A stretch of 55,830 bases of DNA from the IMG/VR virus record IMGVR_UViG_3300020438_000050, positions 1-55,830 of that record; one strand, written 5' to 3'. The notes under the pieces are model-generated. The model was not told the DNA's origin, did no database searches, and was given only the letters and a program-made list of their open reading frames with translations. Below, piece by piece: positions 6,873-55,234 of the stretch; positions within the stretch are counted from its first letter, which is position 1; the number at the start of each line of letters is the position of its first letter. The position numbers and the translations under genes were made by a program. The DNA comes from a virus.

Positions 6873-7520
6873 TTAGCCAGTTACTTGAGTACCGCCTACG
6901 CCGTCTGCTGCAATTCTGCTTACTACTTCACCAACTCCAGTAAACTGCTCGTCTGCGCCATACTGGATAGCGTTGTCATAACGAATAGAAAGTGTTGTAG
7001 TTACTGCATCACTTGTAGCATATGCTAGTGTATTATAATTTGCTGATTCTAGATAACAACCTACTAGTTGGAATCTATCAATTACGTTTGAACCGTTGGC
7101 GCCGTTGCCGCCGTCTAAGATTTCAATTTTTGTAATAAACTTATATGTACCGCCTGATACAGCACTTGATTGTTCAAAGAAGTCAAACTGTCTTTGAAGC
7201 TGCTGACCAATGATTTTCTGTACATTGTTATTTGCATCTTCACGTAAAGTGATTGTAATTGGATCCCATGTGTGTTTACCAGCAAGATAGCTTCTTGAAT
7301 TATAAGCATCGATAGTCATTTGTTCAAACGTTAAGTTTGGACGAGTTACATCAACTACCTGTCTTGTAATTTCACGGATGCCGTCAGCACCACCTGTTGT
7401 ACCAAAATTTTCAAACAATACTCTAAAACGGTATTGTAATTTAGGCATGAGTAGTGAACTATTGCTTCCGCCACCATCTTCTGTTGGAATCGAAATATTT
7501 GTTAATGTTGTAATTGGCAT
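6873..7520 (-). CDS. gp19: Tail tube protein gp19
   Basis: 215 residues from the ATG at 7520, chosen because a clear AGGAG lies in front of it; T4 gp19 has 163. Tube hallmarks are LQYRFRVLFENFG, TRQVVDVTRPNLTFEQ, HTWDPITITLRED and the tail part YATSDAVTTTLSIRYDNA, the beta-rich hexamerising fold of contractile tail tubes. The protein polymerises inside the sheath to form the DNA channel. It is flanked by hairpins on both sides and has its own late box (CATAAATA) 22 bases upstream, consistent with high separate expression. Confidence 0.95.
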   Translation of the reverse strand: MPITTLTNISIPTEDGGGSNSSLLMPKLQYRFRVLFENFGTTGGADGIREITRQVVDVTRPNLTFEQMTIDAYNSRSYLAGKHTWDPITITLREDANNNVQKIIGQQLQRQFDFFEQSSAVSGGTYKFITKIEILDGGNGANGSNVIDRFQLVGCYLESANYNTLAYATSDAVTTTLSIRYDNAIQYGADEQFTGVGEVVSRIAADGVGGTQVTG

Positions 7521-53673: not shown

Positions 53674-54135
53674 TTATGCGTCTTCTGTGAAGTCTGTATC
53701 GTCTGCACCGACTAATGTGTTGTCGTCGCCTGCTTCTTCAACTTGTGCTGCGCCATCTGCTGTAGATGTACTAAAGTTCCATGCTACACTTTTTCCGTCA
53801 AATGCGTTTGCACCTGTTCCACTTGGAGCAGATAAAGTTGCTTTACGTCCAGCAATTTTACTTACTGTGTATGTTTCACCGTCATCCATTTTGAATGCAA
53901 TAGCCATTTCACCTTCTGCTAGTGCTGCTGGCAATTTGCCAGTTGTTAGCGTACAAGTAAATAATCCAGCTGTGCCAATTTCTTCACATACGAATCTTTT
54001 TGATCCTTTTTGCTTTACAATATAACCTTCTTTGACTGCTGTGCCGTTGTGAAAGTTTACTTTAATTTCGTTGCCGCCGGCTGTAGGTCCTACGCCTGCT
54101 TTTCCGAATAATCTTTTGTTTAGTGGTCTTCCCAT
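53674..54135 (-). CDS. Small virion protein, likely abundant structural protein
   Basis: 153 residues (MGRPLNKRLFGKAGVG). From memory the start resembles a protein of cyanophage virions. Two beta-barrel-like stretches follow (NEIKVNFHNGTAVKEGYIVKQ, GEMAIAFKMDDGETYTVSKIAG) and an acidic C-terminus (AGDDNTLVGADDTDF). It has AGGAG before the ATG, a long structured leader behind a late box and a strong hairpin at its 3' end, like the tail tube gene, which suggests high expression. Precise role is unknown. Confidence 0.85.
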   Translation of the reverse strand: MGRPLNKRLFGKAGVGPTAGGNEIKVNFHNGTAVKEGYIVKQKGSKRFVCEEIGTAGLFTCTLTTGKLPAALAEGEMAIAFKMDDGETYTVSKIAGRKATLSAPSGTGANAFDGKSVAWNFSTSTADGAAQVEEAGDDNTLVGADDTDFTEDA

Positions 54136-54222
54136 TTTGTTTCTCCTATTTTAGAAGTCCGATGCACGTTCTAGGTGCTACGCTGTGGTGCAGCATAAGT
54201 CCGCCTTGCGGCACACTATCTG
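54136..54222 (-). promoter_or_regulatory. Structured leader of the 54135 gene
   Basis: About 88 bases follow the expected start after the late box. The minus strand carries CCGC-AAG-GCGG and a GCTGC/GCGTAGC-like hairpin before AGGAG. No gene is seen here. Confidence 0.48.
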
Positions 54223-54229
54223 ACAATAG

Positions 54230-54237
54230 TATTTATC
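54230..54237 (-). promoter_or_regulatory. Late promoter box GATAAATA for the 54135 gene
   Basis: Minus-strand box just below the terminator at 54244-54280, 94 bases before the ATG. Confidence 0.68.
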
Positions 54238-54243
54238 ACAAAC

Positions 54244-54280
54244 AAAAAAAGCCCGACACAATTAAGTATCGAGCTTTTAA
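54244..54280. terminator. Bidirectional rho-independent terminator
   Basis: 9-bp stem (GCCCGACAC / GTATCGAGC, two G-T pairs) with a six-base loop, seven T on the minus strand and four T on the plus strand. It ends the putative RNA below GT25. Confidence 0.88.
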
Positions 54281-54490
54281 TAATAATGTGATAGGTTGGA
54301 ATTTGAGAATACCAACAACCTCCTAGTAGCTCTCGCCATATTCGGAGGAGCCTAGCATCGGATAGTTACTTCCAAAAACATATCTTTGTATCTCTACACT
54401 CATATGTTGCCACTACAGCTACTAGCCAAGTTGTGTCACTACGCAACACCGTTCCTTGCACTATCTAACTTAGGCCGTCGCCTAACTTAT
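54244..54490 (-). ncRNA. Candidate structured non-coding RNA of about 245 nt
   Basis: Bounded by a sigma70 promoter (54497-54524) and a terminator (54244-54280). Internal pairs I can see: TTAGGC/GCCTAA (54470-54485, four-base loop); GATAGT (54361-54366) with ACTATC (54460-54465), closing a domain; AACATAT/ATATGTT (54377-54408) with an inner TGTA/TACA capped by a GAGA tetraloop on the RNA; and a nine-base perfect complement, 54323-54331 with 54417-54425, crossing the closing helix as a pseudoknot. It does not look like a tRNA, tmRNA or RNase P by sequence. A 26-codon ORF lies inside (54323-54403), with a weak ribosome site. Family unknown. Confidence 0.65.
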
Positions 54491-54496
54491 GTATTA

Positions 54497-54524
54497 ACTA
54501 TAACATCATTACAAACAATGTCAA
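54497..54524 (-). promoter_or_regulatory. Sigma70 promoter of the candidate RNA
   Basis: On the minus strand TTGACA (54524-54519), a 16-base spacer and TATAGT (54502-54497). It overlaps the TGA stop of the GT25 gene. No Shine-Dalgarno and start codon pair follows at a normal distance, which favours an RNA gene. Confidence 0.85.
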
Positions 54525-55234
54525 CCACTTTTTTTACTTTTTAATCCTTTTTTCCAACCGTTAGTAATAGATTGTGGAAATATTTTTATAGGATGTTGTC
54601 TATCATCTGCATTAATATCGTCTGACTTAGAAAATTTAGACGTTGATATTCTTTCTAAGCACACCGCTTGGGGAGGTTCGCAAACATAAAGCGGAAGTGC
54701 AGTCGGAACCATCATCATTAAATATTGATCTAACCCTTTCTCTATTCCAGTACGTAATGTATCATTCCATAACCACTCAGCAGATTGAGGAGTAATTGCA
54801 TAAGCATGACATCCAATAGATCTTTTTATACGCACAAGATCACTTGCCGGTGCTGGCGGATTGTAGTCTTCTATATTTTTTACACGATGACCAAATGTAA
54901 CCACTGACATATTAGGAATATGTATATCTTTTACATTACCTTTGACAATAGCATCGTGTTCTAGTATAATGCAGGGTTTGCCAATTTCAATAATACGTTT
55001 CCAACACTTAATATGAGATGCATGAGCACAGCAATTTCCCATCCTATTCACATATGTCTTTTGTTTTTTTGCTCCTACTGCCTTAAAAGCTTCTCTAGGT
55101 TGTAAAAATTCTATAGCTTCCATATATTCATATTCAAGGTTTTGATCATCACAAGACCTTGCACACATATCTGCATACTCGACGGATATAGGAACCTGTA
55201 GCCTACGTATAATAATAGCTCTATCTATTTTCAT
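54521..55234 (-). CDS. Glycosyltransferase family 25 protein
   Basis: 237 residues. The GT25 (LPS glycosyltransferase) core is GNCCAHASHIKCWKRIIEIG followed by KPCIILEHDAIVKG near residue 95; in most family members the last motif reads LEDDA, here the first Asp is His. SIGCHAYAITPQSAEWL and EKGLDQYLMM are the downstream family segments. It would add a hexose-like sugar to a surface glycan or protein. The C-terminus is basic. A weak late-type box (ACTAAATA, 55243-55250) lies eight bases before the ATG. Confidence 0.85.
   Translation of the reverse strand: MKIDRAIIIRRLQVPISVEYADMCARSCDDQNLEYEYMEAIEFLQPREAFKAVGAKKQKTYVNRMGNCCAHASHIKCWKRIIEIGKPCIILEHDAIVKGNVKDIHIPNMSVVTFGHRVKNIEDYNPPAPASDLVRIKRSIGCHAYAITPQSAEWLWNDTLRTGIEKGLDQYLMMMVPTALPLYVCEPPQAVCLERISTSKFSKSDDINADDRQHPIKIFPQSITNGWKKGLKSKKSG

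Follow-up and report, generated by a model that had tools for sequence, protein, structure and literature searches.

The window analyzed here, i.e., the whole stretch of 55,830 bases of the virus record IMGVR_UViG_3300020438_000050, belongs to a T4-like marine phage, whose terminase carries T4-type domains and whose best matches among phage isolates are distant (53% identity). The longest stretch without genes in the window, positions 54136–54520, comprises 385 nt compared to 158 nt for the next longest, and the sole open reading frame (ORF) called in it (54123–54326, plus strand) overlies a freshwater-2 leader and a terminator. Downstream of a glycosyltransferase-25-like ORF (54521–55234), this gap holds an RNA gene on the minus strand, and the order on this strand is sigma70 promoter, RNA domain, terminator, T4-type late promoter, freshwater-2 RNA and ORF 53674–54135. 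An initial annotation of this DNA had placed a structured non-coding RNA in the gap without giving a strand or naming a family. Its outline of the RNA gene holds, while a nine-base pseudoknot that it had added does not; the gene can now be assigned to the minus strand and, by sequence and structure comparison, to a divergent homologue of the manA RNA. Within ORF 54521–55234, in antisense orientation, there is also a 12/12 match to a sigma70 promoter at 54942–54970 (plus strand).

Promoter of the RNA Gene

The sigma70-type promoter (54497–54524, minus strand) consists of TTGACA (54524–54519) and TATAGT (54502–54497) separated by a 16-nt spacer, as had been read from the sequence initially, and it corresponds to an 11/12 match at a position that is kept in 106 of 109 homologues. 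Matches of at least 9/12 at this fixed distance occur in 106/109 homologues compared to 15.5% of random segments, and matches of at least 10/12 in 102/109 compared to 3.5%. A similarly placed promoter was found by eye in the cyanophage isolates and in Pelagibacter phage Mosig. In the homologues 30–40 nt separate the end of the −10 box from the motif AUAGUG, which leaves approximately 7–12 nt to the first helix, P1. The predicted transcript start lies at approximately 54490 (minus strand), and since the promoter is of the sigma70 type, the RNA is presumed to be expressed early.

Identity as a Divergent manA Homologue

The structured RNA extends from P1 to the 3′ strand of P2 (54285–54485, minus strand) and represents a full-length member of a group of sequences referred to here as clade A; including the terminator the non-coding RNA comprises approximately 245 nt. 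In a permissive Rfam scan of 501 bases it aligned over positions 1–192 of the 192 positions of manA (RF01745) with 45.0 bits and an E-value of 2e-10 (45.0 bits and 5.2e-12 in the scan of the whole record), thereby presenting the full-length manA consensus architecture while staying below the gathering threshold of 55.2 bits. The window RNA shares helices P1–P6, the multibranched P4 and the occurrence in marine phages with manA as described by Weinberg et al. (2010; PMC2864571).

Relatives were collected from IMG/VR as 80 loci carrying the downstream gene and as at least 120 sequence segments that contain the core ATAGTGCAAGGAA..AACTTG; the matches listed contain 97 distinct full-length copies, i.e., 47 of clade A, the type found in the window, and 50 of clade B. 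Scores above the manA cut-off are reached within clade B, the sister of clade A, at locus L060 (58.6 bits) and in phage Mosig (64 bits). A covariance model (R1) trained exclusively on 33 sequences of clade A scores 219 bits on the window RNA, which is one of its training sequences, 51–76 bits on clade B copies, and 27–56 bits (E-values from 6e-18 to 1.4e-7) on all eight manA-positive isolates (P-SSM4, P-SSM2, P-HM2, S-SSM5, S-SSM7, S-CREM1, ACG-2014f and Mosig), which are matched end to end at positions in agreement with Rfam. It found no match in four loci in which the slot is filled by other genes (L009, L010, L058, L073). As the clade A model recovers clade B and classic manA at the Rfam positions, sequence comparison identifies the window RNA as a divergent manA homologue, which lies outside the family only by the Rfam threshold. 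A weak match of the model (17.3 bits, E-value 7e-5, GC content 31%) is located in L021 at 7102–7248 (plus strand).

Queried directly by BLAST, the locus had no match among phage isolates or plasmids. In accordance with the initial annotation, the RNA is not a tRNA or tmRNA, as judged by ARAGORN and Rfam, and no RNase P RNA was found. Matches to VrrA, Qrr, Yfr10 and the L20 and L10 leaders (15–23 bits) are far below their cut-offs and were attributed to the terminator hairpin or to A+T richness. An exact scan of species genomes was negative for the clade B core, and for classic manA it returned two copies, on contigs filed under Flavobacteriales (L391) and Prochlorococcus (L392). A bacterial origin was rejected. 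Phage proteins are encoded on both contigs, and those of L392 include T4-like ones, which indicates that phage contigs sit within these species genomes. In several isolates hypothetical proteins overlap manA (PSSM4_169.1 in P-SSM4, SSSM5_127 in S-SSM5, PHM2_011/012 in P-HM2 and SSSM7_180 in S-SSM7; PSSM4_169.1 and SSSM5_127 are assigned to T4-GC 428), and these are probably false ORFs. Pelagibacter phage Mosig EXVC030M carries an unannotated clade B manA (MT647606.1, 108164–108371, minus strand) immediately upstream of rubrerythrin.

Secondary Structure and the Kissing Loop

The minus-strand RNA is more stable than shuffled sequences (z −4.5) and its helices comprise P1, the closing helix P2, P3 with its hairpin, P4 with P4a, P4b and P4c, P5 with P5b, and P6. 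In an alignment of 33 distinct clade A sequences (A1) this structure is paired in 86.1% of cells compared to 75.5% after shuffling, the covariation amounts to 0.389 compared to 0.195 (reached in 0/500 shuffles; 0.06–0.14 for slid versions), and both sides are changed in 38 of 62 pairs. These tests control the relatedness of the sequences only partly; descent alone is an unlikely source of the covariation because many different pair types are observed. The covariation that had been proposed as a check on the RNA is thus present, and with promoter, fold and terminator conserved in homologues, the proposed gene for a structured non-coding RNA, equipped with a promoter and a terminator of its own, is supported.

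The P1 hairpin (54470–54485, minus strand) forms the 5′ end of the RNA approximately 12 nt past the −10 box and shows two-sided changes in four of six pairs. The closing helix P2 is formed by GAUAG (54461–54465, minus strand) and CUAUC (54294–54290), and other clades have GGGAG/CUCCC or GGAUG/CAUCC at this position; within clades A and B the P2 5′ strand and P3 seem invariant because the search pattern fixed them. P4 (CUAGUA/UGCUAG) encloses P4a, P4b and P4c (54352–54425, minus strand), a region corresponding to helices 5–10, which are 90–100% paired except for the single-pair helix 7 and which each contain two-sided changes. The P6 hairpin GUUGG/CCAAC (54295–54316, minus strand) is 100% paired with up to five pair types.

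The GAGA loop of P5b (54331–54334, minus strand) pairs with UCUC in the loop of P6 (54305–54308, minus strand; UCUC at 54308–54305 in the direction of the transcript). This kissing loop is real and covarying, as judged from the aligned sequences: the columns 178–181 and 207–210 of A1 are 88.6% paired with a covariation of 0.545 compared to 0.175 in shuffled alignments (0/500) and 0.03–0.20 in slid versions, and swapping of loops between sequences, which depends little on the alignment, reached the observed pairing in 0/2000 cases for clade A and in 1/2000 for clade B. Reading of the isolate sequences by eye gives the contact CUGU/ACAG in four Prochlorococcus or Synechococcus phages, CUUU/GAAG in S-SSM7, UGUC/GACA in S-CREM1, UCUU/AAGA in ACG-2014f, and GGU/ACC in Mosig. 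The manA pseudoknot was graded uncertain in 2010 (Weinberg et al., 2010; PMC2864571); a P5b–P6 contact is clear here. The nine-base pseudoknot suggested initially, CTAGTAGCT at 54425–54417 with AGCTACTAG at 54331–54323 (minus strand), exists as a match in the window and is paired at chance level in 33 homologues (60.3% compared to 59.9% in shuffled columns); it was dismissed, and its strands belong to the helices P4 and P5/P5b.

Terminator and Downstream Neighbor

The strong terminator noted initially is borne out as an intrinsic terminator with a 13-bp stem and a T tract (54278–54247, minus strand; −17.4 kcal/mol, z −9.0). A terminator starts less than 30 nt past the RNA in 59/98 homologues compared to 3.7% at random, and in 39 of the 41 copies that are linked to freshwater-2. 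The terminator arms occur in 38 distinct versions among 50 copies and show no excess complementarity to their own RNA (4.82 compared to 4.75 upon swapping, 74/300). Since the arms vary and fit their own RNA no better than those of others, the terminators are not regarded as attenuators, and no anti-terminator, i.e., no alternative pairing of aptamer and terminator as in a riboswitch expression platform, was found.

Beyond the terminator follows the separate late promoter ATAAATA (54236–54230, minus strand), which had also been recognized initially and which belongs to the next transcript. In nearly all relatives it is placed approximately 100 nt ahead of the downstream gene. The adjacent freshwater-2 RNA (RF02980; 54133–54215, minus strand; 65 bits, gathering threshold 49.9), present in 14/15 relatives scanned, lies on the same strand as the window RNA but is a separate late leader of ORF 53674–54135 with an unrelated fold. 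The RNA does not lie in the 5′ UTR of a regulatable gene, as terminator and late promoter intervene, and because the downstream gene has its own late promoter and leader, the RNA is not a switch for this gene. In 22/98 clade A/B copies a late promoter follows within approximately 13 nt after the RNA, usually ahead of gp32. In Mosig, L100, L175 and L120 no terminator separates the RNA from the coding gene immediately behind it. Copies of these kinds could act in cis.

Freshwater-2 and a T4-type late promoter precede ORF 53674–54135 (MGRPLNKRLFG...) in nearly all relatives inspected (L002–L081). Freshwater-2 resembles a fixed late leader of one gene, the protein encoded by this gene being a candidate regulator of the leader. 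The glutamine (glnA) riboswitch RF01739, unrelated to the window RNA in sequence and fold, also occurs close to this slot in several relatives, with matches above the cut-off approximately 500–1000 nt upstream of the downstream gene in L021, L041, L047, L051, and L060.

Association With tRNA Arrays and Exchange of the Cassette

The RNA abuts tRNA genes in a number of relatives. According to Rfam and ARAGORN coordinates, gaps of 0–1 nt separate tRNA-Leu/manA/tRNA-Asn in S-CREM1 and tRNA-Arg/manA/tRNA-Asn in ACG-2014f, and manA/tRNA-Gly in S-SSM7 has a gap of 0 nt. At the metagenomic loci L238, L250, and L263 the RNA abuts tRNAs on both sides (0–2 nt) and at nine others (L243, L251, L257, L261, L266, L279, L292, L318, L328) on one side (0–2 nt). 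The S-CREM1 tRNA array (L202, 1660–2700) additionally contains wcaG and abiF RNAs, and wcaG RNA, like manA, may merit re-examination. An unannotated tRNA-His(atg) in this array is matched by ARAGORN at L220 1254–1325.

Between near-identical flanks the slot found in the window contains clade A RNA, clade B RNA or tRNAs among relatives, e.g., the RNA followed after 5 nt by tRNA-Gly (L093, L104), a sigma70 promoter followed by tRNA-Gly only (L009), or the three tRNAs tRNA-Trp/Gln/Cys (L021). In L032 only the final approximately 10 nt of the RNA (AACCTATCAC) have survived, together with the same terminator. They follow an unrelated ORF and precede the late promoter, which points to a replacement of the RNA cassette. 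Every manA-bearing isolate carries a single copy per genome, and the neighbors are unrelated, namely pstS (P-SSM4), regA (P-SSM2), gp32 (P-HM2), gp23 (S-SSM5), rubrerythrin (Mosig) and tRNAs. Single copies beside unrelated genes are more readily explained by an RNA gene that is mobile than by a switch dedicated to one ligand.

Interpretation of the Locus and Competing Explanations

The locus combines its own promoter and intrinsic terminator with a non-coding, conserved sequence, i.e., the features of a stand-alone small RNA gene. Judged on sequence evidence, we favor, with a probability of about 0.72, that it is a stand-alone phage gene whose product, a discrete structured RNA and divergent manA homologue, presumably acts in trans. 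The RNA probably works as a free molecule, because it has its own start and stop signals and its relatives lie among viral tRNA genes. A sigma70-type RNA polymerase would start 7–10 nt past the −10 box, at the base of P1, and the host RNA polymerase would thereby presumably make the RNA early. The RNA would fold into a closed multibranch domain locked by the P5b–P6 kissing loop, and the transcript would end at the independent terminator. In relatives the 3′ end would be the 5′ end of the next tRNA, cut by RNase P, so that RNA ends within tRNA precursors would come from tRNA processing. The RNA would be exchanged and processed like phage tRNAs, may accumulate like these, and would act in trans as a folded RNA binding to a protein, the ribosome or another RNA. 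Its promoters, slot and processing are also those of phage tRNAs, and on this ground our leading guess for the partner, although a rather speculative one, is the machinery of translation and tRNAs, or else a host factor that targets this machinery during phage takeover.

manA is catalogued as cis-regulatory (Rfam; PMC2864571), and the strongest competitor is indeed a cis-regulatory leader or riboswitch that senses something and controls the downstream gene, here via the terminator. The RNA is placed at the 5′ end of its own transcript, copies occur upstream of gp32, rubrerythrin and other genes, and manA was located in potential 5′ UTRs in the original description (PMC2864571). However, the window terminator separates the RNA from a gene that is served by a late promoter and a freshwater-2 leader of its own, terminators are freely exchanged and lack anti-terminator pairing, the downstream neighbors are functionally unrelated, and copies flush within tRNA arrays have no mRNA to control, so that we consider this explanation unlikely. 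The window RNA differs from the catalogued family in being a promoter–RNA–terminator unit without a regulated gene. The manA of S-CREM1 is also labeled cis-regulatory (PMC9964418), despite the fact that in the deposited record it directly adjoins tRNAs.

A passive 5′ stabilizer or processing element, shielding phage transcripts or tRNA precursors from decay that depends on the 5′ end, would agree with the compact closed fold and with the position of the RNA, which, unless a tRNA precedes it, nearly always makes up the first approximately 200 nt downstream of the promoter. It leaves unexplained the short RNA-plus-terminator transcripts predicted for 59/98 copies, the copies in the middle of tRNA arrays, and the conserved kissing loop and internal loops, and is very improbable to us. 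We give still less credit to an antisense mechanism, in which the small RNA would base-pair with mRNAs of the host or the phage via an exposed seed. Short length, a sigma70 promoter and an intrinsic terminator are the usual small-RNA architecture; yet most of the RNA lies within conserved helices, the kissing-loop sequences, as the obvious exposed loops, vary freely if they match each other, and no sequence-conserved seed was noticed.

The stand-alone, trans-acting reading of the window RNA can be tentatively extended to the whole manA family, which could, with considerable doubt, consist not of riboswitches but of widespread discrete, trans-acting phage RNAs borne in tRNA arrays, smaller analogues of GOLLD and ROOL, e.g., protecting phage translation or tRNAs from host defense, possibly via an assembly driven by the kissing loop. 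GOLLD and ROOL are elaborate phage-encoded non-coding RNAs near tRNA islands with kissing loops and of unknown function (PMC12286853). The manA-type RNA resembles them in being phage-encoded, non-coding and in forming a kissing loop, and its relatives flush with tRNAs share the residence near phage tRNA islands; the resemblance concerns the way of working only, as GOLLD and ROOL, with approximately 660 to over 800 nt, are several times longer and unrelated in sequence, and no Rfam match to them was found in the window.

Implications for the Study of manA

Since 2010 manA has been treated as a candidate phage or marine riboswitch lacking a ligand, and the term cis-regulatory recurs in later phage papers (PMC9964418). 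Our literature search found no paper treating manA as a stand-alone RNA, so that the reinterpretation is probably new, while the family itself was already known. A search for transcription start sites or RNA-seq of manA-bearing cyanophages returned nothing usable, the pelagiphage transcriptome paper covering other phages. If manA is truly discrete and trans-acting, the hunt for its ligand and for a regulated gene aims at the wrong target, and a structured RNA that recurs in marine T4-like phages can be tested for a role in takeover or counter-defense. Cultured manA-bearing systems are available with P-SSM2, P-HM2, S-CREM1 and Pelagibacter phage Mosig, and the kissing loop offers designs for compensatory mutations. 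With the clade A model, copies that score below the Rfam cut-off can be detected as well.
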